From an uncultured Coriobacteriaceae bacterium (GTDB lineage: Bacteria > Actinomycetota > Coriobacteriia > Coriobacteriales > Atopobiaceae): DNA of 42,684 nucleotides. Below are positions 8,990 to 26,293 of the stretch, one piece after another. Every line of letters starts with the position of its first letter. The stretch's first letter is position 1. Made by a program: the position numbers and the translations under genes. The notes under the pieces were generated by a model that saw only the letters and a list, made by a program, of their open reading frames with translations, had not been told where the DNA came from and did no database searches. Where the stretch lies: assembly GCA_902791035.1 (NCBI GenBank), contig CADAUA010000016.1:1-42684 (forward strand), given 5' to 3'.

Positions 8990-10201
8990 CTACAGCTCGC
9001 CGTCGAGCGCGGCGTGCAGGAGCTCGCGCAGGCGGCGGACCTCCTCGCGGTCGTCGGCGGGCGTGTACTGCTTGGGGCTCGCGTTTACCACTGCCTCGTA
9101 GAGCTCATAGCCGCTACCGTCCCGGGCGTCGCGCACTAGCACGCGGTAGATGAGAAAGCCTGTCCAGCTGCGGTGGAAGCAGAAGGCCTCCCCGTCGAAG
9201 TAGACGAACCAGCGGTGGTCCATGTCCTCGGGCACAACGCCCCAGGCGAGGCGCTCGAACTCGCCCTGCGTAAGGGTCATGTCCAGCGGGATGGTCTTGT
9301 GCGTACGCGGCATGCGGTGGGTCTTCCAGGAGGACCTGATGGCCCGGCGGCGGGGCAGGTCCGGTGCGGGCTCCTCGTAGCGCAGGCAGCCGTCGCCAAA
9401 GAGCATGGGAAGACCAGCAGTGGCGAGCGCGCGGCACATGAAGTCCAACTCCCAGGGCCACACAGCGTTGCCGCTGGCAAAGCCGTGCTGGCGGTCGTCG
9501 GTGTAGTCCAGGTCCCAGTAGCCACCGTCGCAGATTATCGTGCACGGATTCTTGGGATAGCTGCCGTGGAGCTGGCCCACGCCAGAGGCCACAAGGCCAT
9601 CAACCAGCCGCTTGGAGCGCTCGGGCGTTAGGCGATACTCGGTCGAGCCGCCGATGCCCGGCTCCAGGAGAAGCACCACGACGCCGTCATCACGCGTGAT
9701 GGTAAGCGAGAAGCTCGCAGCAGCGACCTGCCACATGGCCGACAAGCGCAGCCAGGTGAAGCCTGCCAGGACCTGTGGCGTATCCGCATGCCGGGCTGCT
9801 TGGATTAGCGTGGCCTGGGCGTAGGGGTCGTCGGCATCGTAGCCGTCAGCAAGAGCCAGCTCGTAATGGCCATCCGGCATATGGAGAAGCCCCTTCTCGG
9901 GATCCTCCAGTGCCTTCCCGTATCGCTCCTCCGCCGCCGCTAACTCCGCTTCGGTCGGCTGGTCCCCAACCCACGGGACCTCCGTCACGGGCTCACTGTT
10001 CTGGACCGGCCACAGTGAGCCTTGCATACGGGTCTCCCCGCCATCCTTGGACACGGTGATGGGTCCACAGCCAATCTCCTCGGCCCAGTCCGCTGGCGCC
10101 CAGCCAAAGACCCAAAGGGTCGGCGTCTCCGAGGCGCTCACGATGTGATAGTCGGGATAGAGCTCCCTCGCACGATCCAGTGCGTCATCAAAGCTGAGCA
10201 C
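8990..10201 (-). CDS. Two-domain protein of unknown function, possible immunity-like
   Basis: The product is about 403 residues. The N-terminal part (1-110) has SFDDALDRARELYPDYHIV, WVFGWAPADW and GPITVSKDGG, which slightly recall Imm35/YrhB-like domains. The middle (120-270) is unrecognised. The C-terminal 120 residues hold a compact domain with HRWFVYFDGEAFCFHRSWTG. No membrane segment or signal peptide is seen. GTG at 10201 is chosen because GGAGG lies five bases upstream and the start then matches the paralogue at 7889; ATGs at 10213 and 10222 also exist. It lies 48 bases downstream of mcrC on the same strand and could be co-transcribed with the defence operon. Two degraded relatives lie just downstream. 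Function is unknown. Confidence 0.75.
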   Translation of the reverse strand: MLSFDDALDRARELYPDYHIVSASETPTLWVFGWAPADWAEEIGCGPITVSKDGGETRMQGSLWPVQNSEPVTEVPWVGDQPTEAELAAAEERYGKALEDPEKGLLHMPDGHYELALADGYDADDPYAQATLIQAARHADTPQVLAGFTWLRLSAMWQVAAASFSLTITRDDGVVVLLLEPGIGGSTEYRLTPERSKRLVDGLVASGVGQLHGSYPKNPCTIICDGGYWDLDYTDDRQHGFASGNAVWPWELDFMCRALATAGLPMLFGDGCLRYEEPAPDLPRRRAIRSSWKTHRMPRTHKTIPLDMTLTQGEFERLAWGVVPEDMDHRWFVYFDGEAFCFHRSWTGFLIYRVLVRDARDGSGYELYEAVVNASPKQYTPADDREEVRRLRELLHAALDGEL

Positions 10202-10249
10202 TGCAACCTCCATAGTCCGCATTCTTAATCGTCCCCGACAAGAGCCTCA

Positions 10250-11314
10250 TCAAGTCTTAGAGATATCCCCAAACGCATCGCAAACAATAGCATCAAGCTT
10301 TGACGAGATGTCATCGAAGGGAAGGCCGAGGTCAAGTACGCGGCAACCCAATCGATAGCCCTGATCTATCCAATCTGCGTCACTAACCGGCTCCCCGGTA
10401 CCGGCGTACACAAGCACCGCGGAAACATCCTCCGCAGAGCCAGCATGCGTCGCATAGTAGTAAATCTGGCGAACGTGATCGGCCGAGAGAATACCCCGTC
10501 CATAGTGCATGGAGAGGATCTTCCCATAGCACTTGGCGTCCAAGATCAATGTCTTACCAGCGTAAGACAAGGTCACATCCGTTAGCATGACAGGCACAAA
10601 GGCCGGAGCCAAGGCGCTTGGTTTGACGCTTTCGGCATGGGCGCCCAGCTGGGGAAAGTGGCGCCGGTAGTACTCAAGCAGAAAATGCTCATAGAGCGTG
10701 CTGAACCACTGGCTGTCGTCAAAGGACGCGAGGCGCAACGGCCCAGCTTCCTGCGTCAGAATCAAACTGTTTACAACCAGATAGCACACATTCATCAGCA
10801 GTTGGTAGCTTCTGTTGTTGCGGTGGTAGCGCAGCCTACCCCATGGTATGCGCCTGGGATCGTCAACCTCGCCTACATCGCATAACCACCCAAGAGCTGT
10901 CCCAATCCGGTTACGCCTCCCCGCCGAGACCATGGTGCTACGCAGCAAGGCTCCAAGACAGGTCTTCATGATGCGGTTGAGCAGCGTATTTTCGTCGTAC
11001 TCGTCGTAGTCGTAGTGCGCGCCCAGCTCTCCCGACAATTCCAACCCAGCGGTCTTCCTCAAGTCAACATGCCCGCGGATCCGCCAGCCGTCCTCTTCAA
11101 CTAGACGATATCCTCGGTCGAACCCACGACGCCGTTGCGCCTCCACCCCCAAGAGCAGAATGGCTGCCAGCAGGTCCTCCATCCCCCGAAAGTCCTCCGC
11201 GCCAATCTGCGCATAATCCCGCAGGTCAACAGCCCTAAAGGCATAGGCCATGAGCCAATAGACGTTGCGTACGAGGACCGTCTCGGGCTTTGTTTCCAGA
11301 GAGGCCGCGCCCAC
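10250..11314 (-). CDS. mcrC: McrC-family restriction endonuclease subunit
   Basis: The 354-residue product is a McrC-like PD-(D/E)XK nuclease, the partner that cuts DNA when driven by a McrB NTPase. The N-terminal NVYWLMAYAFR region and the LLNRIMKTCLGALLR helix are typical of this McrC branch. Active-site residues are visible as Glu209 in the YEHFLLEYY helix, Asp246 in LTDVTL, and Asp259-Ala-Lys261 in LILDAKCYG. GTG at 11314 abuts the TAG stop of the mcrB-like gene with no gap, so translation is probably coupled. In family members the complex cleaves DNA bearing modified cytosines; the specificity here depends on the divergent McrB partner. Confidence 0.9.
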   Translation of the reverse strand: MGAASLETKPETVLVRNVYWLMAYAFRAVDLRDYAQIGAEDFRGMEDLLAAILLLGVEAQRRRGFDRGYRLVEEDGWRIRGHVDLRKTAGLELSGELGAHYDYDEYDENTLLNRIMKTCLGALLRSTMVSAGRRNRIGTALGWLCDVGEVDDPRRIPWGRLRYHRNNRSYQLLMNVCYLVVNSLILTQEAGPLRLASFDDSQWFSTLYEHFLLEYYRRHFPQLGAHAESVKPSALAPAFVPVMLTDVTLSYAGKTLILDAKCYGKILSMHYGRGILSADHVRQIYYYATHAGSAEDVSAVLVYAGTGEPVSDADWIDQGYRLGCRVLDLGLPFDDISSKLDAIVCDAFGDISKT

Positions 11315-14254
11315 CTAGACCACTGCCTCGAGCTTGCCAATCTCGGCGTCCGCACGAGCCGCATCGTCAAACCAGTACTCACGAAGCTGAGGTGCCAACT
11401 CGTATTCGACTACATCGCGCACATCGTCATCGCTCACTGGCGGCTGGAGGCAGAAGTAGCTATGGCCAATGCAGAAACCCGGACCAAAGGCTGGGTCGGC
11501 TGCAATGTCATCATTGAGTCTGCTCACGCGTTGTGCAAGCGCGACGAGCTTATCGTTGTGTGCGGCGGCCAAGTCCTTAATGAACTCCTCGTTCGCAAAG
11601 GCCGGCTTCATCTCAAAGAAGGCAAACCTCCTGCGCAGCGCATAGTCTATGAGTGCCAAGCCGCGGTCGGCGGTATTCATCATGCCGATGATGTAGAGGT
11701 TATCGGGTACGCTCACCGACCTCTGCAGTATGGGCAGACGCACGCTCTCGCCTCGATGGTCCTTCTCGATGAGCATAAGCATCTCGCCGAAGACCTTGGA
11801 GATGTTGGCTCGGTTGATTTCGTCGATGATAAAGAACCACTTGTGCGACGGGTCCTTTGCAGCTCGGTCGCAGAATCTGAGGAAGGTACCCTCAACGGGC
11901 TCGTATCCCCCGCCATCCGCTGGCCGGTACCCAGCCATCATGTCGTCATAGGCCGTGTTCTGGTGAAACTGCACGAACTCGATGCGAGAATTGTCCCGCT
12001 CCCCCATCATTGCCCATGCCAGCCGTTTGGCGCAAAAGGTCTTGCCGGTACCGGGGGCACCCTGCAAGATGAGGTTGCGCTTGCGCTCAAGCAGGCGCTT
12101 CATTGTTGCGAGCTCGTCCTCGGAGATGTAGATCTTGCCCTTTGTGGCACTGTGAAGAAAGTCATCGTCACTGTATGGCTCGGCATCCGAAGCCGGTTTG
12201 ATTGGCTCGTCGTCCCCAGCAAGCTCCAACACACGCTCAAACTGCTCCTTTGTGAGCGCGAAGAGACTGCCGTTTAGCTGCTTCATGAACTGCGAGTCTG
12301 CAAGTATCTGATCCTGCTTCATCTCGCCATAAGGCACAGGCTCCGCAAAGTCGCGCACCTTTTCAAAATATATATTCTGTCCATCGTTGTCGCGAGACAC
12401 CGTGCAGAGACACACTGCCTTCTTTACAGGAGTAGCCTCGTAGCCAACAGCCAGATCACCCATCTTAACTGCTAGGAAGTTCTCGTGGATCCGCCTCGGA
12501 TGACCGGTATCCGTGTAGACGGTATAGCTCTGCTCCTCGCCCACATTGATGTCCGAGAAGGACCAGATCTTCGGGCTTGCGTTAATCCACCAGTACGCTG
12601 TATCACGCCCTGAGTCTGCATCATGCCCCTCAACACCTTGCTGGCCTACCGCCCCACTGCTGGCTGTGCTTTGATCCAGTGCCCCGTCCATCAAATCAGT
12701 CAGCTCGCTCACCTTTACCGAAGTACTCTCATTAAGCTGCGAGAGGGTGATACGCGGGAACTGGCCCTTCACCTCGAAAGGCTCGACCGGGCTCCAGTCC
12801 ACGTCACGAACGGACTTGTAGCCGTCTCGGCTATCGTCGTAGCGATAGTCGGACTTCACAACTCCCCTCCCAATCACCCGCCGGAGTCCCTCACGTGCAT
12901 ACACAACATCGCCGGGCTTCAGCTCATCTGCGAACGACCAGATGATTGCTGCGGCCACTGCAGGGCTCTCCTGCTCGTATGTTTCCGCGATCTTGGCCTT
13001 CAGCTCCTTCTTGCTCGAAAAAGCCGAGCAATCCCCCAGCTTGTTCCAGCCAATGGCCATGATTCCGGCATCACGGAAATCGTCCCAATACTTTGCGTTC
13101 TCCCCGGGGGCGTACACCCATGTACGTGCTATTCCCCAGCTCGCAAAGTACACAATGTCCTGCGCCAACAGGTGATGCGCGGGGTCAGCACCCGCCAAAT
13201 CGCCTAATAGCTCATCGCTGCGCTCAATCACCTCGGGTCGACATGCCTTGATGTAGGTCAGCAGCCGGTCACACATCTGCTCATATGCAGCCACCTTTTC
13301 TATCTTGTCATGTGGAACGTCGGCCCCAACCAGCGCTGCGAATGATTCATAGGAGGTGTTTTTATAGATGTAGTGGCGCTCTGGCTGCAGGAAGTACAGG
13401 TAGACACTTATGGCGTGTGCATCCTGGAAGTCATGCTTGGCCAGCTTTTCTCCCCGTTCAGCACGAGCAGCGTTTTCATGATGAAGTTCATCTTCTGCTG
13501 CGCTCATGAAGTTGCGGACACGCTGAGTCAGCTCTTGATCATCCTGGAGGAGTGCCTTGAAGCCCTCGCGCACCTTCTCTGGGCTATTGCGAGCAAAGAC
13601 CTCAACCATGCCGCGCGGAAAGTAGTTGAATCCGGTCAGGAGGTTCTCTGTCTTCTGGAGAGAGACCTCTAGCATCTGGGCAAAGTCAGGGGCGTCAACA
13701 TCCCAGTGCTCCTTGAACCAGCCAGCTGCCTCCCACTTGTAGCGCTCGTTGTCTTGTGCGTCGGTTCGGAGCTGGGGAAGCCGCTCGTAGTACTGGTCAA
13801 GGATACCGACAAGGACGCTTACAGCCATACCGTCCAAATCTGGCACGGTCGCCAGCTTGGACCAGTGGTAGCCCTTGCCCATCTTGCAGTATTCGAGCAG
13901 GGTTGACCAATCCGCTTGGGCCTTGCAGGCAGCTTGTTCCGCGAGAAGAGCTTCGTCATCCGGACGCGTGTCGTTGGGATGCAGCTTCCGCCAGTAAAAG
14001 ATGAAGCCTTCGCCCGGCACACCCGATTTGTTTGTCACCAGCGCAGTCAGACAAGGGACCCCACTCTCCACGCAAGCATCCTGTATGCGCCCCAGCACCA
14101 CGTTGAATCCCCTATGTGGATTGATGTGTCGGCCCGTATGGGACTCAATCAATGCCGAGAGATCGCCATATGTGATGGGGACCTCATCAAGATCAAGGGC
14201 CAGCAGCAGCCCGGCGATGACCTCTCGATCGATGCACTGGATTTCGTCTGCCAA
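11315..14254 (-). CDS. mcrB: McrB-like AAA+ NTPase with two PUA/EVE-like regions
   Basis: This roughly 980-residue protein ends in a McrB AAA+ module: Walker A GAPGTGKT (about 732-739), Walker B FFIIDEINRANISKVFGE (about 808-825) and MMNTADRGLALID (about 858-870), the McrB signature. Two upstream regions look PUA/EVE-like: about 377-495 (WVYAPGENAKYWDDF, GIMAIGWNKLGD, WSFADELKPGDVVYA) and about 553-640 (WWINASPKIWSF, FLAVKMGDLAVGY). Such domains bind modified bases in related restriction proteins. The first 350 residues are helical and unrecognised. TTG at 14254 is preferred because GAGG lies seven bases upstream; TTG at 14269 has no ribosome site. A strong hairpin separates it from the DUF499 gene. 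Confidence 0.88.
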   Translation of the reverse strand: MADEIQCIDREVIAGLLLALDLDEVPITYGDLSALIESHTGRHINPHRGFNVVLGRIQDACVESGVPCLTALVTNKSGVPGEGFIFYWRKLHPNDTRPDDEALLAEQAACKAQADWSTLLEYCKMGKGYHWSKLATVPDLDGMAVSVLVGILDQYYERLPQLRTDAQDNERYKWEAAGWFKEHWDVDAPDFAQMLEVSLQKTENLLTGFNYFPRGMVEVFARNSPEKVREGFKALLQDDQELTQRVRNFMSAAEDELHHENAARAERGEKLAKHDFQDAHAISVYLYFLQPERHYIYKNTSYESFAALVGADVPHDKIEKVAAYEQMCDRLLTYIKACRPEVIERSDELLGDLAGADPAHHLLAQDIVYFASWGIARTWVYAPGENAKYWDDFRDAGIMAIGWNKLGDCSAFSSKKELKAKIAETYEQESPAVAAAIIWSFADELKPGDVVYAREGLRRVIGRGVVKSDYRYDDSRDGYKSVRDVDWSPVEPFEVKGQFPRITLSQLNESTSVKVSELTDLMDGALDQSTASSGAVGQQGVEGHDADSGRDTAYWWINASPKIWSFSDINVGEEQSYTVYTDTGHPRRIHENFLAVKMGDLAVGYEATPVKKAVCLCTVSRDNDGQNIYFEKVRDFAEPVPYGEMKQDQILADSQFMKQLNGSLFALTKEQFERVLELAGDDEPIKPASDAEPYSDDDFLHSATKGKIYISEDELATMKRLLERKRNLILQGAPGTGKTFCAKRLAWAMMGERDNSRIEFVQFHQNTAYDDMMAGYRPADGGGYEPVEGTFLRFCDRAAKDPSHKWFFIIDEINRANISKVFGEMLMLIEKDHRGESVRLPILQRSVSVPDNLYIIGMMNTADRGLALIDYALRRRFAFFEMKPAFANEEFIKDLAAAHNDKLVALAQRVSRLNDDIAADPAFGPGFCIGHSYFCLQPPVSDDDVRDVVEYELAPQLREYWFDDAARADAEIGKLEAVV

Positions 14255-14278
14255 AACAAGGCCTCGCAATCTATAAGT

Positions 14279-14307
14279 GGGCGGGGCATGCTAACCATGC
14301 CCCGCCC
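14279..14307 (-). terminator. 12-bp stem hairpin inside the defence operon
   Basis: GGGCGGGGCATG and CATGCCCCGCCC pair perfectly around a 5-nt loop in the gap between the DUF499 gene and the mcrB-like gene. On the minus strand it is followed by CACTTATAGATT, which is not a good U-run. It may slow transcription, protect the RNA 3' end of the upstream genes, or lower McrBC expression relative to the other three proteins. Confidence 0.6.
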
Positions 14308-14315
14308 GCAGTCCC

Positions 14316-17300
14316 CTATCCGTCAAACCGATAGTCCTTGATGTGAAGCGTGTTGCAGTTCTCAGAGACTGCGCGGGTCACGGGCACGGAGATGCCGTCC
14401 TTCACCTTGGCACGTACCTCCAGCGTGAGCTCTACCTCGGCACCGTCCACTTGCGAGATCTGGTTCACGATCTCCTCCATGATGGTGCGCACGTCGCGGT
14501 TCACGCGCGTGTTGTCCAGCTTGGCGCTCATATAGAAGGACGTGGGCAGCGAAGGCTTGGGCGGCGGCACAGGACCCGGCTTGGGCTGCGGCGGAAACTC
14601 TCCCCCACCTTCGGACACCGGTACCGGCACTACTGGACCAGGTCCCAGCCCCACAGGCGGCTTGTCCTCGCGCTCCCGGTCGATCTGCTCCGCCGCCACG
14701 GCCGGCCGCACCAGGAAGTCGCTCGTGTTAACGAAGGTCCTCGGCTGCCCCAACGTGAGGTTGAGGTACCGGTCGTCGCCCACGCCGTCTGCGATGCCAA
14801 AGAACTCCTCGGAACCCAGGCCGCGCAAAATCGCGTCCTCCAGCACGCCGTAGTTGGCAAGCCTGGGCAGGTAGCAGTAGGTGCACAGGTACTCCCAGAG
14901 CTGCTTTACCTGGATGTGGCGCTTCTCCTTCCAAAGCACGCGATCGAGCTCCATCCGCAGCAGGGCCGGCGCCCACTTGCTGATGGCGGCCTCGTCGCCC
15001 ACCAGCTTGCGCGTCGCCTTCTGCACCGCGTCCTCACTACCACCCGCGATGTGGTCGACGTCCCACCGGATGTCCATGCTGCCGGATGCCAGGTCTACGC
15101 TCGGCGCCAAGAGCCAGGCATATGCCTCCTGGATGCGCGTCTTCAGCATGGCATCAGCGCGCGCCATGCCCTGCTCGGTCTCGCGCTGCTGTGCCATGTC
15201 CAGGTTCAGCTGCTCGCGGTCGTTGGAGATGCTCTTCCAAGCAAGGTAGTCCCGCGCCGCCTTCTCCAGCGAGGCCACCTGCCCGCCATCGCAGGCAATG
15301 AAGACCAGCATGTTCTTGTATCGCCTGGGGGCGGAGCCGCGCAAGGCCAGGATCTCCCCCGCCAGCCGGAGCGCCTCAGAGTCCTCAGAGCCCTTCCTGT
15401 GCGCCGCCGTGGGAGGCAGCACCACCATGCGGAGCGACTTCTCGTCCGGCACGTCCAGCGTGCTTGCCGGGCACACGTGCAGCCCCTCGATGGGAGCCAC
15501 CCTGCGGAACTTCTTGAGCCGCTGCTCCACCTCGTACATGGCGTCCGTCTTGCTCAGTTGCTGCGCGCGGTCCTCCATGACCTTGCGCAACGTGGGCCGC
15601 GTGTCGTACCAGTAGCGGTTGTCGCTTCCATCGCTGTAGAGGAAGGACGACTTGCTCTTGAGCATGCGCAAGGCGTCGTTGAAGGTATAGACGTTCTCCC
15701 CGGGCTGCACCACGCCCAGTCGGATGTGCGCCTGCTCGATACCTCGCGTGTTCTGCCCACCCACATCGGGCGCACTGCCCAGCATGATTGTGCGGGCCAC
15801 GCGCCGCGAGGCAAGCACGCGCCCATAGCGCGGGTTCTCCTGGTCGTTCCTGTAGGGCACGGAGTTCTTGCCGTCAATCTCAGAGTCCACCACGCCGTTC
15901 CAGTTCTCGTCCAGGTAGCGGGTGAGCTCGTCACGAACGTTGGGCACGTCCAGCGGCAGGGAGCCCGGCATGATCATGGGGCTCTGGTCCTGGTTCATCC
16001 ACAGCTCGTGGATCACGGCCGCCATCAGCCGCAGCACGCCACGGGTGCGCTGGAAGGTCTCCAGCGTGGCCCAGTCCTCGTACAGCCGGTCAAAGACCTC
16101 GGGGTGTATGGGGTAGCAGCTGATCATGCGGTCGCGGTAGTCCAGCTCCCGTGCGTCCACGGGGAAGTCCGCCGCGTTCTGCGTGTACATCCTAGAGAAG
16201 GCGTTGCACACCTCGTCGCGCTTGGCAGGGTCCTTGCAGTCCAGGAAGAGGCGCCTGCGCACCACCTCAAAGCCCTCGCTTGCGCTTACGGGCTTCCAGA
16301 TGGACTCCATGCGGCCAAAGGTGTGCTCTATGGCCTCGAGCGCCCGCTGGCCACTCTCGCCACCAATCTCGCGGTCGCTCTCCGGGATGGAGGCCACTAC
16401 CAGGCTGGACTTGCTCGCGCGTGCGGCCTCGGTAAGCTCCTGCACAAAGGTGATGAAGTTGTCGAAGGTTCCCGCAGGCAGCTTCTCGGCCCCGTACAGC
16501 TTCTTTGCATAGGCCACCAGCTCGTCCACCAGTACGAGGGCACACCCGCAGGAGTCAAACAGCTCCGTCATGGCCTGCGAGCCCGGCGAGACGCCCTTGC
16601 GGTCCGCCTCGCGCACGTACTCGTAAAGCTCCGGTCTGCCTGCGGAATCCGCCAGCTGAAAGGCCATCTCGCCCCACAGGGTGTTCACGGTGATGCCCGG
16701 CATAGTCTGCGGCCGCCTGGCCTTTGCCGGGTTGAGCGCCGTACCCACGAGCACCGCTACGTGCACCTCGGGAATCTGGCTCACGCCAGCCGCATCCAGC
16801 ACCGGCCTCACGTTGGCCAGCTGGGTCACGTTGCCACGGTTGCGCATGAGGTGGTAGAGGGCCAGCATGCTGTGCGTCTTGCCGCCACCAAAGGCAGTCT
16901 TCAGCTGGATCACGGGCTCGCCGCCCAGCCCCGCCACCCGGCGGAGCGACTGGACCAGAAGCCCCTTCATGCCCTCGGTCACGTAGGTGCGGCCAAAGAA
17001 CTCCACCGGGTCGCGGTACTCCAGGGCGCCGCTCCCCCGCGCCACCTGTGCCAGGTCCGCCGCGAACTCCGCCTTTATGTAGCGGCCCTCGGCCACGTCC
17101 GGGTGGGGCTCCATGACGTCGCGCCAGCTGGGCAGGTTTTCCGCGGGCACGGTCTCCGCCACCTGCTTGGCACCCGTGCCCTCCTGCGCATGGGCGTTGC
17201 TCGTGGTGGCCACGGACCCCTGCGCACTGCCGTAGCGAGCCTCGCGCAGGAGGGCGTTGAGCTCCACCGCGCCATCGGGATCAATCTGCTCGCACAGGCG

Positions 17301-17672
17301 GCTCATAGTGTCCAGGGCACGCCAGGTGTCGTTCTCCGGAAAGTCCTGTACCCCATGGTGTGCCCACTTCACACGCGTACCCTTGAGCTCGATGGCCCAG
17401 GTGCGGCAGTCTCGGGGCAGCTTCTTGCGAAACACCTTGTTCCACTGGAAGTCCAGCACCCGCAGGCAGGCCAGTATGTCCAGCGAGTCCATGAGCTGGT
17501 TGCCCGTACCCGTGGCAGGCAGGTCGCGGCGCTGCTCCGGTGTGAGGTCGGCCAGCACGCCCTGGCTCCACCAGTCCTCGCCGTACTCGCGGATGAGCTC
17601 GCGCGTGATGTAGGGCACCATGGAGTTGAGAAGGACGTCGAAGCCCTTGGAGACCATCAGGTAGTTTTCCAT
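14316..17672 (-). CDS. Swt1-type HEPN + DUF499 AAA-like ATPase
   Basis: The 1118-residue product starts with a Swt1-like HEPN domain (residues 1-130; GFDVLLNSMVPYI, LDSLDILACLRVL-like helices and R100-VKWA-H105, an Rx4H HEPN motif). DUF499 follows, with Walker A AFGGGKTH (260-267) and Walker B ALVLVDE (378-384). A proline-rich linker near 1020-1060 precedes a small C-terminal beta domain. DUF499 ATPases recur in defence islands beside DUF1156 methylases and helicases. HEPN domains are often RNases or their inactive relatives, so this protein may be an ATP-driven sensor or effector. ATG at 17672 follows GGGGGA at six bases; the earlier TTG at 17678 overlaps that site. It starts 11 bases after the methylase stop. 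Confidence 0.88.
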   Translation of the reverse strand: MENYLMVSKGFDVLLNSMVPYITRELIREYGEDWWSQGVLADLTPEQRRDLPATGTGNQLMDSLDILACLRVLDFQWNKVFRKKLPRDCRTWAIELKGTRVKWAHHGVQDFPENDTWRALDTMSRLCEQIDPDGAVELNALLREARYGSAQGSVATTSNAHAQEGTGAKQVAETVPAENLPSWRDVMEPHPDVAEGRYIKAEFAADLAQVARGSGALEYRDPVEFFGRTYVTEGMKGLLVQSLRRVAGLGGEPVIQLKTAFGGGKTHSMLALYHLMRNRGNVTQLANVRPVLDAAGVSQIPEVHVAVLVGTALNPAKARRPQTMPGITVNTLWGEMAFQLADSAGRPELYEYVREADRKGVSPGSQAMTELFDSCGCALVLVDELVAYAKKLYGAEKLPAGTFDNFITFVQELTEAARASKSSLVVASIPESDREIGGESGQRALEAIEHTFGRMESIWKPVSASEGFEVVRRRLFLDCKDPAKRDEVCNAFSRMYTQNAADFPVDARELDYRDRMISCYPIHPEVFDRLYEDWATLETFQRTRGVLRLMAAVIHELWMNQDQSPMIMPGSLPLDVPNVRDELTRYLDENWNGVVDSEIDGKNSVPYRNDQENPRYGRVLASRRVARTIMLGSAPDVGGQNTRGIEQAHIRLGVVQPGENVYTFNDALRMLKSKSSFLYSDGSDNRYWYDTRPTLRKVMEDRAQQLSKTDAMYEVEQRLKKFRRVAPIEGLHVCPASTLDVPDEKSLRMVVLPPTAAHRKGSEDSEALRLAGEILALRGSAPRRYKNMLVFIACDGGQVASLEKAARDYLAWKSISNDREQLNLDMAQQRETEQGMARADAMLKTRIQEAYAWLLAPSVDLASGSMDIRWDVDHIAGGSEDAVQKATRKLVGDEAAISKWAPALLRMELDRVLWKEKRHIQVKQLWEYLCTYCYLPRLANYGVLEDAILRGLGSEEFFGIADGVGDDRYLNLTLGQPRTFVNTSDFLVRPAVAAEQIDREREDKPPVGLGPGPVVPVPVSEGGGEFPPQPKPGPVPPPKPSLPTSFYMSAKLDNTRVNRDVRTIMEEIVNQISQVDGAEVELTLEVRAKVKDGISVPVTRAVSENCNTLHIKDYRFDG

Positions 17673-17683
17673 GCTCAATCCCC

Positions 17684-20464
17684 CTAGAGGTCGCTGCCAA
17701 AGTCGAGCGTGCCCTGCACCGGAGTCTGCGCCTGCAGCTGCGCCGCGCGGGACTGGATCTCCGGCCAGGCCGTAACCAGCGAGTTGTACGCAAAGGCCTC
17801 CTGGTTCCAGCCCTTCTTGTCCGCGATGGTAAAGAGGCGGTATGCCAGGGCCTTGGCGTTCTCTGCTGAGCTGTCCAGCACGTCCTTAACCAGAGCGGCG
17901 CAGGCGTCCACGCCACCCGCCTCCATGGCGCGGGCCAGCTGCTGGGTGAAGAGCCAGGTGAAGGTGGTGTCCACGTGCGGGCCCAGCTCCTCGCGCGTGA
18001 GCAGGCGCACGATGCCCTTGCTGGCGTGGAGGGCGCCCCTGTCCGCCAAGCCCTCGATGGAGGTGTTCTTGGCGCGGGCCAGCACATCCGCCTCGCCAAA
18101 CCTGATCTCGTTGAAGGCGCACTGGGTGTAGAGCTCCACGCAGAAGCGGCTCTCGCGGTCCAGGTCGCCGTCCTGGTCGGAGAAGTAGAGGTCAAGCTCC
18201 TGGTTTATGACCTGCAGGGCCGAGCGCACCGTCATCTCTGAGCCGTCGGCCTCGAGGACCTTGGAGTAGCGGGAGTAGACCCCCATGCCGGGGCCGATGG
18301 CGGACTGCGCCAGGTCCACGGGTGCGATGTTGGAGGTGCGGAGCTTGTCCAGGGCGGGCCGGAGCTCCCGCTTGAGGGCGGCCACAAACTCTCGGCGCGT
18401 GGCCGCGGGGGCGTCCGCAGGCCGCTTGCGGCACACGAGGACGATAGACGACGCAAGGGCGTTGGTGCCATTGCCAATGGTTCGCCCGGGCTTTTCCGTA
18501 CGCACTGGCCAGGTTCCCGTAATCGAGAAGCCCGCCCTGATGATGGCGCCAAGCATGGTCTCCCAGCCCGACGACGCGACCTTGGCATCGCCCTCGGACT
18601 CGTCCGCCTCGCCCTGCTTGTAGGCATAGTAGATGGTGACGGGCACGTCCTCGCGGGCATACTCATGTACCTGCCTAAAGGTCTGGAGCATGCCATCCTC
18701 AAAGAACTCCTTCGCGCGCTCCTTAGAGCCGTCAAAGCGGTAGGGCGTGGCCACGAGCTCCTCAGCCTTCGGCACGAGCATCGTGGAGAAGAGCTTGGGA
18801 TAGGTCCGACGCAACGACTGGCGGAGCCACACATAGAAGTAGTCCGACAGGTCGGCATAGCCTATGTTGTCGTAGTAGGGCGGATCCGTGGACACCATGA
18901 TGCTGCGCATGCCGTTGTCGCTCTGGGCGTCGAATTGGCGAGCAGACCCTTCCTTGCATCCGGCTGGTGCAAGGTTAGGAAAAGCCTGAAGTGCAAGCAT
19001 AAACAGATTATTGAAGCAGCCAGATGAATTACTAAAAGGGTTACTCTCTGCATAATCCCAAGTCATCGGGATTGCCTGCCTTGCAAACACGGTTCTCATC
19101 TGCGTATTTGGAGCATTCCATCCGCAGATAGACGAACATTGATTTGTTAGCTGATCAACCACAAAGGCCAGGTAGACCCCTATTGCCTCGCCGTAGGCGC
19201 GGGCGCCGGTGCCGCCCGCGTCCAGGCCTACGCCATCATCGGGCATGCCGGCGGCGATGGCATCCTGAGTGGCCCTCTCCTGCGCCTCGCCCACCAGCTC
19301 CGAGAACGTGGTCAGGGCTGTCAGCTGTCGGTTGGTAAACAAGTCTTTATGTTTTGTCAAACCATATGCTTGAACACGAAACCCCAGTGCCTGAGGAGGC
19401 AGCTTGGTTTGAGGACAGCTCTCTGGTTCCGGTACATCAGCGGCTATAGCCTGTTCCTGAGAAGCGTTTGCGTAAATTCGCCCTTTAGGTCCCTCACCAA
19501 CAACAGCCATTAGCTGTGCGCTCATGCGACCTGCGCAGCTCTCACCGCGTATGTATTCAAACTCGATAGGCATCCGGCAATGAGGGCATGTGGCACCTCT
19601 CATACGTTGAACTGTCCCCTCCCGCGTGGCCTTGCCCTTCTCCACCGCAAACTCGACCTCGCCGCCATGGCAGCGCAGGTCCACGTGCCACTCCTTGCCC
19701 TTCTTCTTGGAGAGGTCGAAGGAGCGCACCAAGGGCACGGTGCCGCCGCAGGCCGGGTTGGGGCACTTGACCGTGCGGGCCCAGAGCCAGGCGATGATGG
19801 TAGCCTCTCCTCCGCCCTGGTCGGTGGGGACCTTTACCTTGGGGTAGAGGTGGCCGATGCGCCTCTCCGCCTCGTTCCGCATCCACTGGCCGTAGTACTC
19901 CACGTCCGCGGCAAGACCCGCGTTGCCCTCCCAGTTGTCGCGCACCAGCTCGGCGCGGTCCTGGGGGTTGACGGGGCTCTGGCCCGCGAACCTGGGCGGG
20001 ATCTCGATCATGGCCTTGTTTACGGTCACGGCCACGGGGTTGAGGTCCTGGGCGTAGGCTTTGAGGCCCAGGCGCTGGGCCTCAAGCGGTATGGCCCCTC
20101 CGCCCGCGAACGGGTCCAGCAGGGCCGGCACGTCCCCGTGGCAGGACTTCTGGATCTCCGCCTTGGCCGCGGCAAGCACGTCCTGGTTGTTGGAGTTCTC
20201 CCACACCACGAGCTGGCGCAGGATGTTGAAGAGGCGCTCACGCTCCCGGCGCTGGGCCTCCTCCGTGGGGAACTCCTCGGGATGGCTGGACGGGTCGTCC
20301 ACCAGAGAGGACCAGATGACGGCGCGGGCCGTGGCCAGGGGCCGGCGGGCCCACCACAGGTGGAGCGTGGAGGGGTGGCCGTGGCGGATGGACTTCTCGC
20401 GCGCCGAGGCCGCGTTTATGTCGTCGAGGGGCAGCGCCACCTCTATGAGCTTCTTCGTGGTCAT
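17684..20464 (-). CDS. DUF1156 adenine/cytosine-N4 DNA methyltransferase with zinc ribbon
   Basis: The 926-residue protein begins with the DUF1156 signature (IEVALPLDDINAASAREKSI, then LHLWWARRPLATAR). DPFAGGG (117-123) is the SAM-binding motif and DPPYYDNI (527-534) the amino-methyltransferase catalytic motif. A zinc ribbon is formed by CPNPAC (234-239) and CPHC (293-296). It would methylate the exocyclic amino group of adenine or cytosine in host DNA, protecting it from the operon's effector. ATG at 20464 has GAGGA five bases upstream, so the 81-residue upstream extension of the open frame is not used. The gene lies 55 bases after the helicase. The target sequence cannot be inferred. Confidence 0.92.
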   Translation of the reverse strand: MTTKKLIEVALPLDDINAASAREKSIRHGHPSTLHLWWARRPLATARAVIWSSLVDDPSSHPEEFPTEEAQRRERERLFNILRQLVVWENSNNQDVLAAAKAEIQKSCHGDVPALLDPFAGGGAIPLEAQRLGLKAYAQDLNPVAVTVNKAMIEIPPRFAGQSPVNPQDRAELVRDNWEGNAGLAADVEYYGQWMRNEAERRIGHLYPKVKVPTDQGGGEATIIAWLWARTVKCPNPACGGTVPLVRSFDLSKKKGKEWHVDLRCHGGEVEFAVEKGKATREGTVQRMRGATCPHCRMPIEFEYIRGESCAGRMSAQLMAVVGEGPKGRIYANASQEQAIAADVPEPESCPQTKLPPQALGFRVQAYGLTKHKDLFTNRQLTALTTFSELVGEAQERATQDAIAAGMPDDGVGLDAGGTGARAYGEAIGVYLAFVVDQLTNQCSSICGWNAPNTQMRTVFARQAIPMTWDYAESNPFSNSSGCFNNLFMLALQAFPNLAPAGCKEGSARQFDAQSDNGMRSIMVSTDPPYYDNIGYADLSDYFYVWLRQSLRRTYPKLFSTMLVPKAEELVATPYRFDGSKERAKEFFEDGMLQTFRQVHEYAREDVPVTIYYAYKQGEADESEGDAKVASSGWETMLGAIIRAGFSITGTWPVRTEKPGRTIGNGTNALASSIVLVCRKRPADAPAATRREFVAALKRELRPALDKLRTSNIAPVDLAQSAIGPGMGVYSRYSKVLEADGSEMTVRSALQVINQELDLYFSDQDGDLDRESRFCVELYTQCAFNEIRFGEADVLARAKNTSIEGLADRGALHASKGIVRLLTREELGPHVDTTFTWLFTQQLARAMEAGGVDACAALVKDVLDSSAENAKALAYRLFTIADKKGWNQEAFAYNSLVTAWPEIQSRAAQLQAQTPVQGTLDFGSDL

Positions 20465-20519
20465 GCTTCCTCGCTTTCGGTAGCGGCACTTCGGCCGCTT
20501 GCGATGACGCTGGTCTCTC

Positions 20520-23500
20520 CTACCATGAGACCGTCCTCTCCAGCACCACCTGGGCCGACTTGCGCAGGCGACCAAGGTCGTAGTTGGTGCAGTTCTCGGT
20601 AAAGACCGGAGCCCGCAGGACAGGCCGCTTGAGGTAGGTGACGTGCATGGCCCTGCCGTCCACCTCCGCGACGGCCAGGTACCAGCCGTCGGGGTTGTTG
20701 AGGGCACAGAGGATCTCGTTCTTGGAGAGGGTCACGTTGTCGGACCCTTCCGCCCGGCCCTTGACCTCGATCATGCGGAGGATGGGCTCGCCTGCCGTGC
20801 GCAGGGCCGGGGGCACCTCGGACTCGATGTCGTAGCCAATCTTGCGCTGGTCGCTCACGTCGTGGGGTTGGTAGCCAAGCTCGCGCTCGATGGCCATGAC
20901 AGCGTCCATGGCATGAAGCTCCACGTCCCGCTTGGCCTCAGCGTCCGTGCTGTTTTCCTGCGCGTCCTGCCCTCTGCCGCGCAGCTTGGATGCCGGCAGC
21001 ACCAAGGCGCCGCCGATGACACGCGGGGGCAGGGCATTGAGCTGGCCTTGGAGGTCCAGCAGCTTGTTGCGCCTCTCCAGGCGCTCGGCGAGCTCGTCCG
21101 CGCGCTTCTGTGCCTGGGCGGAGTTCTGTTTGGCGTTCCTCTTGCCGGCGTCCTCCCGGTCCTTGAGCTCCCAGGCGCGCGAGTCCCAGTACTGAATCTC
21201 GTCCTTGAGGCGCTTGTTCACGGCCTTTCTCACCTTGGACACGTGAGCCTGCGCGCGTGAGCGCACCTCGCCCAGATGGTCGGGCACGATGTGCTGGATG
21301 GCATAGTCGGTGGCAATCTCCTCGGGCTTGCCCTGGAGCCAGGAGAGCTCGTCGGCAAGCCCGCCTATGTGAGCCAGCTCCTCCTGCGTGGGGGCACGGT
21401 AGTCCAGGTAAGGGGCGTAGCCGGCATCCGTGGCGTTGCCGTCGTAGTCGGTCTCCACAAAGCGGACCGCGCGGCTCACCACCCTGCGCTCGCCCGACTT
21501 GGTGAGGGTGCCATCCTGGACGGAGCTCTCCACGTAGAAGAGGAGGCGTGGCACGTCGCAGGCGGGGTCGTCGTCTACCAAGATGCTGCCGCGACGCATG
21601 ATGCTGCGGCCCTGCTCCAGCACCACGGCCACCGTGGCGTCCAGCAAGGGATGTCCCGGGCACACGAGCTCCGCCGGCACGCCGTCTATGCGGGCACAGC
21701 GCTTCTTCTCGAAGCAGATGCGCTCGTAGCTGCGCAGCACGGGGTCCGCCACGCCGATGTACATGTCGTGCGAGCGCACGGGGAAGGGGACCTCCAGCAC
21801 CTCGTAGCGGCCCTCCTCGCGCTTCTTCACGCGACCGCCCAGCTTGCGCATGGCCTCGAGGAAGAACGACTCGATGAAGTGGGGCTCCAGCTTGCGGGCC
21901 TCCATGCGCTCCATGTCCTCCCGGATGCTCGCCACCTGGCTGGCATCCATCACGTCCGCCGTGAGGGCGTACTCGTCCAAGAGCTTCTGGAAGGCCTCGT
22001 GGTCGAGCGAGCTGTCCACCACCTGGTTGAGGCGGTCGCGCACGTCGGGCCTATCGCCGTAGCGGATTGCCTCCACCAGGAGCTCGCGCAGGGGCTTCTC
22101 CTCAAAGGAGATGCTTCCCAGCACGTCGAAGACCTGGCCTCCCAGGGCCTGGCGCTCCTCCTCCAGCTTCTTGAAGAGTCGGTTGAACACCTGGCCCTCG
22201 CGGGTCTCCGCCGCCACGAGGTTCCACAGGAAGCAGACCTCGGTCTGGCCTATGCGGTGGATGCGGCCAAAGCGCTGCTCTATGCGGTTGGGGTTCCAAG
22301 GGAGGTCGTAGTTGACCATGAGGTGGGCGCGCTGGAGGTTGATGCCCTCGCCCGCGGCGTCCGTGGCCACCAGCACGCGCACCGCGGAGTCCTGCTTGAA
22401 GGTCTCCTCCGCACGGCGGCGCTCGTCGCGCCCCATGCCGCCCTTGATGGTGAGCACGGCGTCGTGGCTACCCAGGAGCTGGCGGATCTTTGTGGCCAGG
22501 TAGTCCAGGGTGTCCTTGTGCTCCGTGAAGATGATGAGCTTCTCACGCCTACCGTCTGGGGAGAACATGTTCGCGTTGTCCTGCAGCAAATGGGAGAGCT
22601 CGTCCCACTTGCGGTCCAGGCCGCTCATGCGCACGTCGTTGGCCTGGCGCTCCAGCTGCCTGAGGGTGGCAATCTCGGCCTTGAGCTCCTCCTCCGTGGC
22701 CGCCGCGGTGGCCGAGTCCATGAAGGCATCCTCCAGGCCCTCGAGCTCCTCGGGCGTGAAGTCGTCCTCGTCGAAGGGCTCGTCATCATCGCCAAAGATG
22801 CTGGAATATGAGCCGGTCTTGCGGGACTTGTCGGCCACCTCGGTAAGCCGGGCCTCCAAGCGCTCGCGGCGACGGCGGAGCGACTGGTAGATGGCCTCGG
22901 GCGAGGAGGCTAGGCGGCGCTGCAAGATGGTGAGGGCAAAGCCCACGCTGTTGCGGCGCTTGCCGTCCAGCTGGTCAGCGCGGTTGAACTCCGTGGTCAC
23001 GTAGGCCGTGACGGCCTCGTAAAGGTCGTGTTCCGCCGGGGAGAGCGAGTAGCTCACGGTGTAGGCGCGGCGCTCCGGGAAGAGGGGTTTGCCGTCAAAG
23101 CGCACGAGCTGCTCCTTGACCAAGCGGCGCATGACGTCGGACACGTCCAGCTTGGCGGGATTGCTGCCACTGCCAGCGCCAGGGGGCAGGGACTTCTCCA
23201 TTACGAAGAGCGGGTCCTGTGGTGACGTGGTCTTGGGGGCCCTGCGATGGCGCGCGCCAGCAAAGCGGTCCGGGTCCACCAGCGCCATGAAGAGCTGGAA
23301 GTCCTCCGGCTTGCCGTTGTGGGGCGTGGCCGTGAGCAGGAGGAGGTTCTCCGTGATGGAGCCCAAGAGCTGACCCAGGGTGTAGCGCTTAGTGTACTTG
23401 ACCTCGCCGCCAAAGATGGTGGCACTCATCTTGTGAGCCTCGTCCACCACCACGAGGTCCCACGTGGACTCCTTGAGGCGGCCGCGAACCTCGTCGTTGC

Positions 23501-24128
23501 GGGAGAGCTTGTCCAGCCGGGCGATGCAGAGGTCGTTCTCCTGGAAGGCGTTGCGTGTGACGGCGGCCTCCAGGATGTCGTTGGTAAGGATGGTGAAGGA
23601 GAGGCCGAACTTGCGGTAGAGCTCGTCCTGCCACTGCTCCACCAGGTTACCGGGGCTCACGATGAGACAGCGCTTGAGGTCGCCGCGGGCCAGCATCTCC
23701 TTGATGAGGAGGCCCGTCATGATGGTCTTGCCCGCGCCCGGGTCGTCCGCGAGGACGAAGCGCAGGGGCATCTTGGGCAGCATGTCGCGGTAGACGGCGG
23801 ATATCTGGTGCGGCAGCGGGTCGATGGCCGAGGTGCGCACGGCCAGGTAGGGGTCAAAGAGGTGGGCCAGGTGGATGCGGTAGGCCTCGGAGGCCAGCTT
23901 GAGGCCGTTGGGATCGGCGTCGAAGGTCCACTGGGTGGCGCCAGCGAGGGACAGATGGCCCTCGTCCATGCGGGAGAGGATGGTCTCGCCGAGGATGCCC
24001 TTCTCGGTGCGGTAGGTGAGGGTGAGCGACATGTTGCCATGCCATTCCACGGCCACCACGGTTACCGGCTCGTCGCCGATAACGCCGCGCACCACGCTCT
24101 TGGGTTGTAGGTCCTCGAGCCTTGCCAT
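20520..24128 (-). CDS. SNF2-type helicase with C-terminal DUF3883 domain
   Basis: The 1202-residue protein is a large SF2/SNF2-family DNA translocase. Motifs are DDPGAGKT (128-135), DEAH (229-232), LTATPHNG (265-272) and, in the second RecA lobe, GRIHRIGQ. An acidic, coiled middle region follows. The C-terminal part (about 1070-1175) matches DUF3883, with GYDIES and RMIEVKG laid out like a PD-(D/E)XK core, so it may be a nuclease or DNA-end binder. Similar helicases stand first in DISARM-like and helicase-methylase-ATPase defence operons. ATG at 24128 is preceded by AGGAAC and GGAG. It is the first gene of the minus-strand operon, with a hairpin in its leader. Confidence 0.92.
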   Translation of the reverse strand: MARLEDLQPKSVVRGVIGDEPVTVVAVEWHGNMSLTLTYRTEKGILGETILSRMDEGHLSLAGATQWTFDADPNGLKLASEAYRIHLAHLFDPYLAVRTSAIDPLPHQISAVYRDMLPKMPLRFVLADDPGAGKTIMTGLLIKEMLARGDLKRCLIVSPGNLVEQWQDELYRKFGLSFTILTNDILEAAVTRNAFQENDLCIARLDKLSRNDEVRGRLKESTWDLVVVDEAHKMSATIFGGEVKYTKRYTLGQLLGSITENLLLLTATPHNGKPEDFQLFMALVDPDRFAGARHRRAPKTTSPQDPLFVMEKSLPPGAGSGSNPAKLDVSDVMRRLVKEQLVRFDGKPLFPERRAYTVSYSLSPAEHDLYEAVTAYVTTEFNRADQLDGKRRNSVGFALTILQRRLASSPEAIYQSLRRRRERLEARLTEVADKSRKTGSYSSIFGDDDEPFDEDDFTPEELEGLEDAFMDSATAAATEEELKAEIATLRQLERQANDVRMSGLDRKWDELSHLLQDNANMFSPDGRREKLIIFTEHKDTLDYLATKIRQLLGSHDAVLTIKGGMGRDERRRAEETFKQDSAVRVLVATDAAGEGINLQRAHLMVNYDLPWNPNRIEQRFGRIHRIGQTEVCFLWNLVAAETREGQVFNRLFKKLEEERQALGGQVFDVLGSISFEEKPLRELLVEAIRYGDRPDVRDRLNQVVDSSLDHEAFQKLLDEYALTADVMDASQVASIREDMERMEARKLEPHFIESFFLEAMRKLGGRVKKREEGRYEVLEVPFPVRSHDMYIGVADPVLRSYERICFEKKRCARIDGVPAELVCPGHPLLDATVAVVLEQGRSIMRRGSILVDDDPACDVPRLLFYVESSVQDGTLTKSGERRVVSRAVRFVETDYDGNATDAGYAPYLDYRAPTQEELAHIGGLADELSWLQGKPEEIATDYAIQHIVPDHLGEVRSRAQAHVSKVRKAVNKRLKDEIQYWDSRAWELKDREDAGKRNAKQNSAQAQKRADELAERLERRNKLLDLQGQLNALPPRVIGGALVLPASKLRGRGQDAQENSTDAEAKRDVELHAMDAVMAIERELGYQPHDVSDQRKIGYDIESEVPPALRTAGEPILRMIEVKGRAEGSDNVTLSKNEILCALNNPDGWYLAVAEVDGRAMHVTYLKRPVLRAPVFTENCTNYDLGRLRKSAQVVLERTVSW

Positions 24129-24155
24129 GTTCCTGCTCCATTGGTTGCTTGGGCC

Positions 24156-24181
24156 GGCTCCCGCACCATGACGCGGGAGCC
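24156..24181 (-). promoter_or_regulatory. Leader hairpin upstream of the defence operon
   Basis: GGCTCCCGC and GCGGGAGCC form a 9-bp stem with an 8-nt loop, 28 bases before the helicase start codon. Further upstream (about 24193-24204) GTAG and CTAC flank TATC in a small palindrome within the most AT-rich part of the region. No convincing -35/-10 pair was found. The hairpin could affect translation or mark a regulator site. Confidence 0.4.
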
Positions 24182-24289
24182 CTCAGAGTACGTAGTATCC
24201 TACAACGGAGCTGAAAGGGGCAGAGCGCGTCCGGGGAGCGGTCAAGCTCGGCTGTCAGAACCTTCTAGCAATAACACCCTCACATAAGA

Positions 24290-24311
24290 AAGGCCCGACG
24301 CATCGGGCCTT
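24290..24311 (-). terminator. Rho-independent terminator upstream of the defence operon
   Basis: AAGGCCCGA and TCGGGCCTT form a 9-bp stem with a 4-nt loop. On the minus strand the stem is followed by TCTTATG after a run of T, giving a usable tail. It would stop minus-strand transcription coming from the DUF3800 gene side, so the helicase operon needs its own promoter between 24130 and 24290. Confidence 0.7.
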
Positions 24312-24351
24312 CCCAGGTGTCGACCGAAGTCTTCCACCGCGATTGATGTAA

Positions 24352-24774
24352 TTCTACCACGAGCACAATAACGACCCCGCACTCTTCTCCGCCGGCATCA
24401 AGGTGCCCGACCTCGTAGCCACCGTAGGCGACGTGCACCACATCTTCCCCAAGGCCTACCTGCAGCAGGAGCTGGGCGCGAGCAAGGGGCTCTACAACCA
24501 GGTGGCCAACTACGCCTTCCTGGAGAAGCGCATGAACATCGCCATCGGCAAGCGGGCGCCCAGGGACTACTTCGGCGAGGCTCGCGACGCGTGCGCGGCG
24601 GGCGCGAGCTACTTTGGCGACGCGGAGACGCCCGCCCAGCTCGCGGCGTGCATGGAGGCAAACTGCATCCCGGCAGGCGTGTTCACCATGACGGCGAGCG
24701 ACTACGAGCGCTTCCTTGTGGAGCGCCGGCAGCTCATCGCCCGCAAGGTCCGGGCCTACTTCGAGGGGCTGTAG
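24352..24774 (+). pseudogene. DUF262/DUF1524 (GmrSD-like) C-terminal remnant, copy A
   Basis: The open frame begins directly after a TAA at 24349 and reads FYHEHNNDPALFS... VGDVHHIFPKAYL to the stop at 24774. VHHIFPKAYL is the HNH motif of the DUF1524 nuclease domain that forms the C-terminal half of DUF262-DUF1524 type IV restriction proteins (about 550-600 residues). The entire DUF262 NTPase and the first part of DUF1524 are missing and no ribosome site precedes any start. ATG near 24400 would give about 123 residues. Most of it is repeated nearly identically at 25913-26245. Confidence 0.8.
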
Positions 24775-24806
24775 GGGGCGGCGGATCTTAACGCCAGAGG
24801 GGTCTC

Positions 24807-25511
24807 CTATCCTGCGTCTTCAAGCCGCTTCCTACGCGCAACCTTTAGGTAGTTCCTTCTAACGTTGCGCTCCGAGCCAAAGAACTTTTGATCAGTATTG
24901 GTCGCCTCACCGTTCTCGTACTTGAGCGCTGTCAGCTCGATGGTGCACAGAAGGTCTGCCGCCTGGGCCAGCACAAAGTCCGGAGCATGCATTCTGCGGT
25001 ACATCAAGCCGTTCTTGGAGAGGGCATACTCGACCGCAGCATGGACTGCGTGCGCTACGTCCTCCTGTCCATCGTCGTAGTAGACCTTCACGCTATCGAA
25101 GGACTGGAAGAAAACCAGATGGTCAAAGATCAGGTTGACGATGTCTCGACGCATACGCGTAACGATGGCCTCTCGACCGGCAAACTCGCTACGCCGGTAG
25201 AGGAAGGTCGTGTATGTTATGGGGAGGTGCTGCAGATCCATGAATGCAATCGAGAGGTAAGCCTTGCGTATCTTGAGGCTCATGCCCTCATAGTCATCAT
25301 GCCCTGTCAAGAGAGGACCAGCATGCAAGGGGACATCGGCCAGCCCTCGAACCTGCAGAGCAAGCCTGTGCTGGTCCAGGCGCTCAGCAATGTCATCTGA
25401 CTGATCGTGAAATACGAGGGTGATGCCATAATACTTTGAATGGCCTCCCTGACCTCCAGACTCATCCACGAAGATGCTTAGATCGCTCAACGCCGCACCC
25501 TCCCCCGCCAT
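24807..25511 (-). CDS. DUF3800 domain protein
   Basis: The 234-residue product has the DUF3800 signature IFVDESG (Asp16, Glu17) and, further on, YYDDGQ and FVLAQAADLLCTIE, with a conserved basic C-terminus RRNYLKVARRKR. DUF3800 is predicted to have an RNase H-like fold with acidic active-site residues; its function is not established, although it is common in phage and defence-linked regions. ATG at 25511 has AGAGGGG nearby; the TTG at residue 8 could be an alternative start. Two nearly identical DUF1524 tails flank the gene as direct repeats. Fragments of related DUF3800 genes occur at 7962 and 27702. Confidence 0.85.
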   Translation of the reverse strand: MAGEGAALSDLSIFVDESGGQGGHSKYYGITLVFHDQSDDIAERLDQHRLALQVRGLADVPLHAGPLLTGHDDYEGMSLKIRKAYLSIAFMDLQHLPITYTTFLYRRSEFAGREAIVTRMRRDIVNLIFDHLVFFQSFDSVKVYYDDGQEDVAHAVHAAVEYALSKNGLMYRRMHAPDFVLAQAADLLCTIELTALKYENGEATNTDQKFFGSERNVRRNYLKVARRKRLEDAG

Positions 25512-25529
25512 TCATCCCCTCTGATAAGC

Positions 25530-26245: not shown

Positions 26246-26293
26246 GGACAAGCTAGCCAAGAGACTGCACCTCCTCAGTCGCCCTCCATAGGC

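Follow-up and report, generated by a model that had tools for sequence, protein, structure and literature searches.

The stretch of DNA analysed here (the window) comprises 42,684 nucleotides and forms contig 16 of the 2.69 Mb, 37-contig genome of an uncultured Coriobacteriaceae bacterium. On the minus strand between positions 10250 and 24128 lie five long open reading frames (ORFs), none of them broken by a stop codon, in the order hmaA–hmaB–hmaC–mcrB–mcrC: a complete set of genes for the defence system known as Hma or Type-1 BR, in its HEPN-bearing form, followed by a pair of genes for the two subunits of an McrBC-type type IV restriction enzyme. The reading that we favour, with a probability of about one half, is that an intact McrBC whose McrB subunit carries an EVE domain was acquired separately at the 3′ end of the Hma operon, that the two work as two layers of defence, and that the place it occupies is a variable cargo position.

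The first gene, hmaA (20520–24128), encodes a SWI2/SNF2 helicase of 1202 amino acids with a C-terminal NOV_C/DUF3883 PD-(D/E)XK nuclease domain and matches the PADLOC family PDLC00659 at 1522 bits. It is followed by hmaB (17684–20464; PDLC00660, 1157 bits), encoding a 926 amino acid DUF1156 DNA methyltransferase with a DPPY motif, and by hmaC (14316–17672; PDLC00662, 1063 bits), whose 1118 amino acid product joins a Swt1-type HEPN domain to a DUF499 AAA+ ATPase. Next comes mcrB (11315–14254), which has a TTG start and encodes a 979 amino acid AAA+ motor with an EVE domain and further N-terminal domains, and finally mcrC (10250–11314), encoding a 354 amino acid McrC-type PD-(D/E)XK nuclease subunit from a GTG start that abuts mcrB. 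Starts were placed where relatives begin to align, at the ATG at 20464 for HmaB (ORF residue 82) and the ATG at 17672 for HmaC (ORF residue 3), whilst the TTG of mcrB at 14254 was set by alignment opposite the ATG of its relative in genome G034. With these starts the gaps from hmaA to mcrC are 55, 11, 61 and 0 bases in order. An earlier, preliminary description of this DNA had reported the same five minus-strand genes with the same gaps and had assigned the first three to Hma, and both points are borne out by the ORFs and family matches, each of the three PADLOC scores exceeding 1000 bits. If we call the five genes an operon, it is by their spacing.

Catalytic motifs are present in all five gene products when these are aligned with their relatives. 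In HmaA, where Pfam recognises Helicase_C, SNF2-rel_dom and NOV_C (58.6 bits), the Walker A, DEAH and motif VI elements of the helicase and the D...ExK signature of the nuclease are all intact; the nuclease motifs GYDIES and IEVKGR line up with those of relatives, and it is from the motifs alone that a nuclease is predicted. HmaB, a DUF1156 match, has motif I as DPFAGGG and motif IV as DPPYYDN. HmaC scores 100.6 bits against HEPN_Swt1 and 108 bits against DUF499, with GGGKTH as its Walker A motif; when genome contigs were scanned for HmaC, the best match with a name was a metagenome-assembled genome of the Eggerthellales (L002), 72% identical in the best segment. The scores fall well below the cut-offs of the NCBIfam ‘antiphage’ equivalogs (177 of 1200 bits for DUF499 and 114 of 1000 bits for DUF1156). 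The gene set that characterises Hma or Type-1 BR, namely helicase, DUF1156 methylase and DUF499 ATPase together, is nonetheless complete, and the fusion of HEPN to DUF499 in HmaC places it with the HEPN variant, which is listed for 1370 of 2446 Type-1 BR taxa (PMC12839542). Cores of this type have been published before (PMC3710099, PMC7641849, PMC8565338, PMC12839542), and the C-terminal nuclease of the helicase is described as the primary effector of the core (PMC12839542).

The HEPN domain of the window departs from this pattern at one residue. Its motif (HmaC ORF residues 102–107) reads RVKWAH, with the arginine and histidine kept and valine in place of the usual asparagine. Among 71 aligned rows, 58 are not entirely gapped in these columns; arginine, asparagine and histidine occur together in 50 of the 58 and the asparagine in 52, and the combination with valine is seen in the window sequence only. 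Because the asparagine is so widely kept, the RNase activity of this HEPN domain may be weakened.

The DPPY motif of HmaB is typical of amino-methyltransferases, which modify N6 of adenine or N4 of cytosine, and not of 5-methylcytosine enzymes, and it suggests that HmaB is an amino-methyltransferase of one of these two kinds. Published usage differs: the Type-1 BR methyltransferase is termed an N6 enzyme in PMC12839542 and HmaB is termed a 5-methylcytosine (m5C) enzyme in the PADLOC paper (PMC8565338). The disagreement matters here because a 5-methylcytosine mark could expose the host to an McrBC that reads that base.

The last two genes encode a K-12-like McrBC with an EVE-bearing McrB. McrB matches AAA_5 at 84.8 bits and EVE at 28.5 bits (cut-off 23; ORF residues 558–683), the latter residues also matching the solved protein 2gbs weakly (E 0.0047), and this EVE domain is the putative reader of a modified base. 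Residues 689–973 align with E. coli McrB (6ut6), and Walker A, Walker B and an NxxD-type motif, NTAD, are all carried. Residues 383–511 resemble part of the PADLOC candidate family PDC-S02; for the N-terminus before them (approximately 1–383) neither Pfam (E up to 1) nor a six-row profile compared with solved structures gave anything credible, and the Pfam scan gave no match to a B3 site-recognition domain in McrB. McrC matches PF10117 at 55.8 bits (cut-off 23.9), has no PADLOC match and can be aligned with E. coli McrC (6hz4) across TD...DAK, with the PD-(D/E)XK catalytic residues present. Both subunits undershoot the NCBIfam equivalogs (McrB 243 bits against a cut-off of 637; McrC 239 bits against 338 for NF007277).

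McrBC came to the locus separately from Hma, as both composition and relatives indicate. The proportion of G + C at third codon positions (GC3) is 0.673 across the 1335 codons of mcrBC and 0.867 across hmaABC, where no stretch as long as mcrBC falls below 0.821. The nearest McrBC relative that we found, in G034, is 69–70% identical in McrB over nearly its full length and 77% in McrC, in a genome that has no HmaC match and no Hma gene in the 19 kb fetched around mcrBC. The scanned neighbours of this pair comprise GGDEF/EAL, DUF4143, beta-helix and Fic genes, a weak DnaJ match and one gene without a family.

The preliminary description had proposed a five-gene operon that joins the Hma core to McrBC. 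Of the genomes searched for HmaC, 14 of 140 from the family had it, as did 38 of 396 sampled from the phylum, 24 of 396 sampled from the class and 54 of 297 from the phylum of G528 (Deltaproteobacteria), the low-scoring matches probably being other DUF499 subtypes; McrC (PF10117) was found in 40 of the 140 family genomes. When McrC was sought in 34 of the 37 other HmaC positives of the phylum sample together with the four genomes of loci L002–L005, six of the 38 had it, as did two of the 52 examined among the 54 positives from the phylum of G528; G317, G386 and G419, with fragmentary or weak HmaC matches, and G579 and G679 were set aside before these counts. Altogether McrC occurs in 11 of 103 distinct HmaC-bearing genomes, and within 7 kb of hmaC in the window genome only. 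Distances were taken from 13 McrC rows, leaving aside the McrC of G526, which lies on another contig than its HmaC (itself on a contig of 3.9 kb), and the HmaC of G743, some 519 kb from McrC on the same contig. The next-nearest McrC, in G782, was considered as a second case and rejected, being separated from a divergent DUF499 gene by 12.6 kb and other genes. Of 72 genome loci with HmaC that were fetched, 47 have at least 3 kb of sequence behind it. The count for the proposed unit is thus 1 of 103, and the finding that the description itself had named as telling against its proposal, McrBC beside the core in this strain only, is what this sample returned. In this sample the same five genes do not recur in one order in several lineages, and a defined five-gene system is not supported.

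What does recur beside hmaC is another type IV family. Matches to GmrSD_N are present in 36 of the 72 HmaC-bearing genomes scanned (of the 103), and in 12 of the 72 they lie on the strand of hmaC and no more than 7 kb from it, nine on its 3′ side and three on its 5′ side; on the opposite strand there are none within 7 kb and two at 9–11 kb. The distances used 61 of 63 GmrSD rows, two of the three pieces in G375 being omitted. This recurrence of GmrSD beside HmaC holds in two phylum-level samples. Among relatives of the same family, GmrSD follows hmaC directly in G137 (with an overlap of 8 bases) and G068 (after 9 bases) and follows it in G066 with a 534 amino acid gene and an opposite ORF between. 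In G268 and G300, of one genus, it sits between hmaB and hmaA. In an HmaC tree, built by a quick method with SH-aLRT (Shimodaira–Hasegawa-like approximate likelihood ratio test) support only and with long branches flagged, the carriers of GmrSD are scattered over several separate places, and the window falls with two of them, G137 and G066, in a clade of eight rows (SH-aLRT 99); a second G066 locus in this clade stops at a contig end.

GmrSD has company of its own. In G137 and G066 it is followed by a NADAR gene; at L024 (5384–8377) and L025 (4422–7400) a NADAR-DUF6508 protein comes right after it, possibly as a two-gene type IV module. The cargo behind or inside the Hma operon further includes Schlafen-type and ABC-type genes; at L041 (4208–5848), L048 (10628–12403) and L053 (1193–4384) hmaA and hmaB have Schlafen-AlbA and ABC-type genes between them, so that the operon has a second cargo position. 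Directly behind hmaC at L025 (8511–10115) and L026 (7279–7950) are two genes without a Pfam family whose products, judged by eye, seem to have in common a C-terminal domain with a CPKCRKYF-like motif. The methylase gene varies as well: in L024, L025, L027 and L089 the GC3 of hmaB is 0.43–0.53 against 0.58–0.92 for the hmaA and hmaC alongside, as if the methylase had been swapped within the operon, with a possible change of sequence specificity, and in G287 (L057, 2728–7087) hmaB is split in two around a transposase-like (rve) gene.

Among other restriction–modification (RM) genes, McrBC has comparable neighbours. In 36 of the 39 other McrC-bearing genomes of the family (all except G030, G038 and G039) we looked for same-strand N6_Mtase matches up to 5 kb from mcrC and found them in five (G018, G036, G060, G072 and G090, the G036 matches being weak). 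The distances cover 51 of 56 McrC rows and 60 of 98 N6_Mtase rows, and none of the remaining rows, checked by eye, lies within 12 kb of McrC. In G090 (L073) the genes hsdR–hsdM–hsdS–mcrB–mcrC run in one direction with 61 bp between hsdS and mcrB, and GC3 is 0.92 for hsdR, 0.93 for hsdM, 0.50 for hsdS and 0.66–0.69 for mcrBC; we take this to be the type I counterpart of the window arrangement.

Association of this kind is known from the literature. The K-12 branch of McrBC is described as a frequent associate of type I RM, the two perhaps sharing an operon (PMC11090510), and the window shares with it an NxxD-type McrB, an McrC nuclease and a position behind an RM-type operon in the same direction; it differs in that the partner is Hma and not HsdRMS and in that the NCBIfam equivalog cut-offs are not reached. 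Another frequent partner of McrBC is a DISARM-like system (PMC11090510), followed up in PMC12458937 and now called ARMADA; there too a type IV enzyme adjoins a cassette of SWI2/SNF2 helicase and methylase. Unlike this cassette, the window has HmaABC as its core and no DUF1998 match in the five genes, as a YprA-type helicase would call for. The third likeness is to BREX with the GmrSD enzyme BrxU, where an RM-like core and a type IV enzyme give complementary protection (PMC8565348); core and type IV family are both different there. GmrSD is also named as one of the nucleases auxiliary to BREX and to systems related to it (PMC12839542). Set beside Hma in PADLOC (PMC8565338) and the HEPN-fused Type-1 BR (PMC12839542), the window has all three core genes in common, with the same HEPN-DUF499 fusion, DUF1156 methylase and SNF2 helicase with C-terminal nuclease, and is set apart by the McrBC behind hmaC and the valine in the HEPN motif. 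The words Hma and DUF499 are absent from the main texts of PMC11090510 and PMC12458937, and ‘Mcr’ from that of PMC12839542, whose supplements may hold McrBC cases. No paper joining Hma with McrBC was found in the literature searched, which included passages of PMC8713573, PMC12278908 and a Campylobacter paper, in keeping with the preliminary description, which had not recognised the combination as a defined system.

Under the reading that we favour, HmaB would mark the host DNA, and the ATPase HmaC and the helicase–nuclease HmaA would restrict DNA that lacks this mark, with the HEPN domain of HmaC as a possible back-up RNase. With its EVE domain McrB would recognise a modified base, and it would recruit McrC to cut, the targets being phage DNA whose modification lets it escape the Hma core. 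The 3′ end of hmaC would be a variable position for type IV enzymes, filled by GmrSD in some relatives and by McrBC here. We infer each of these activities, the base recognised, the complementarity of the two layers and any co-transcription from the sequence. The preliminary description had offered two alternatives: that the methylase protects the host whilst McrBC kills, and that two restriction activities are combined in one transcript. The first misfits because type IV enzymes cut modified DNA, and would be valid solely for exceptions of the LlaJI type (PMC12707154). Of the second, the joining of two activities stands as gene order; the single transcript is conjectural.

The gap between hmaC and mcrB contains a hairpin. 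At 14279–14307 (strand unassigned) lies a perfect 12-bp stem with a loop of 5 and no T tail (z −4.2 against shuffles). The window has three other perfect stems of 10 bp or more; the stem variants listed number eight for the window and 0–4 across 20 block shuffles. Even with up to 3 mismatches allowed, the genome has a single copy of the hairpin, and the idea that it might be a genome-wide repeat was therefore rejected. A terminator scan of 8500–26000 found 17 candidates against 8.7 in shuffles without listing this T-tail-less hairpin, and Rfam at gathering scores gave no match in 8500–26500. Inspection by eye shows hairpins after hmaC in G012 and G017 too; none is seen in G137 and G068, in which GmrSD comes immediately after hmaC. 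Beyond mcrC, a sixth minus-strand ORF (8990–10222; 410 amino acids, no family match) starts after 27 bases and has related stretches at 8307–8537 and 7538–7889, and at 26294–31991 three AAA_14/DUF4143 ATPase genes are clustered.

Several observations weigh against our reading. The hairpin, a possible terminator or attenuator, makes co-transcription of hmaC and mcrB no more than a possibility, and the promoter scan of 8500–26000 found no site on either strand against a mean of 2.8 in shuffles. With one instance of McrBC next to Hma, the pairing may be an accident. Twelve plasmid records inspected, of 141 with an HmaC match, have no McrBC at hmaC by annotation or profile, and no GmrSD in about 8 kb behind hmaC in each. 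Eleven further loci of the class sample (11 of the 13 newly found HmaC genomes, those of G990 and G899 not being fetched) have neither McrC nor GmrSD; these were read over the fetched stretch with home-made profiles, which missed the partial GmrSD genes of G334 and G327, and five of the eleven have 3 kb behind hmaC. The GmrSD share of 12 in 72 is itself a raw figure with no background rate beside other defence genes. Among the cases behind it, G327 and G334 are partial matches, G375 is in pieces that are all under the cut-off, and the DUF499 genes of G338 and G549 are divergent. PF03235, the GmrSD family, is broad, and dependence on modification need not hold for all its members. Within the clade of the window, the stretches fetched for G088, G955, G1022 and G1030 are without GmrSD. 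Finally, the position behind hmaC also holds genes for a TIR protein, a UvrD helicase, Fic, a resolvase and products of no recognised kind; the position thus carries variable cargo, in which type IV enzymes recur without being the only occupants. A search of viral contigs with peptide patterns returned no relative of HmaC or McrB.

The same facts can be read more plainly, as two systems that happen to share a defence island: an autonomous McrBC would have arrived behind hmaC, under its own control and with no functional or selective tie to Hma. This is a serious contender, at less than even odds. It accommodates the single case among 103 genomes, the distinct GC3 of mcrBC, the hairpin that separates hmaC from mcrB, the closest McrBC relative standing apart from Hma, and 23 further Hma loci with no type IV gene (McrC or GmrSD). 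What it leaves to chance is that hmaC and mcrB share a strand at a spacing of 61 bases, that GmrSD near hmaC recurs with such a bias of strand (12 to none within 7 kb), and that related mcrBC pairs adjoin other RM genes. One can also go further than two-layer defence at a variable position and suppose that Hma operons are platforms with a built-in slot for an exchangeable modification-dependent nuclease, in which one transcript provides a two-sided check of DNA, the core destroying DNA on which the host mark is missing, its rider (GmrSD, or here McrBC) DNA that bears a foreign one; McrBC may then be tuned to ignore the HmaB mark, or be triggered when the core is blocked. We think this unlikely as it stands.

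Far less probable is an integrated RM system of the LlaJI kind, in which McrBC would cut unmodified sites, the HmaB mark would shield the host and the five genes would form one system. The methylase gene does lie in the same run of genes, and LlaJI is a real example of an McrBC-related enzyme that cuts unmodified sites (PMC12707154). The window McrB differs from such enzymes in having an EVE domain and no B3 match, and its 70%-identical relative resides in G034, a genome without an HmaC match. The form in which the preliminary description had put the matter, McrBC as the apparent nuclease arm of the core, has adjacency in its favour and is scarcely credible, because HmaA bears a C-terminal PD-(D/E)XK nuclease of its own with intact motifs, so that McrBC need not supply one, and McrC comes within 7 kb in none of the other HmaC genomes examined.

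As far as gene order goes, Hma appears as a newly seen carrier of McrBC and, in our sample, a repeated carrier of GmrSD, and the locus seems to exemplify a broader tendency for type IV enzymes to be added to RM-type operons. Hma and BR cores are widespread (PMC8565338, PMC12839542), and their accessory genes have been little studied. Modular assembly would explain what appeared to be a five-gene system, and is a caution to anyone who would name a system after seeing a single locus. Should type IV enzymes indeed be repeatedly loaded beside the same core, this would parallel the complementarity of BREX and BrxU, and it would predict which phages are stopped by each of the two layers.

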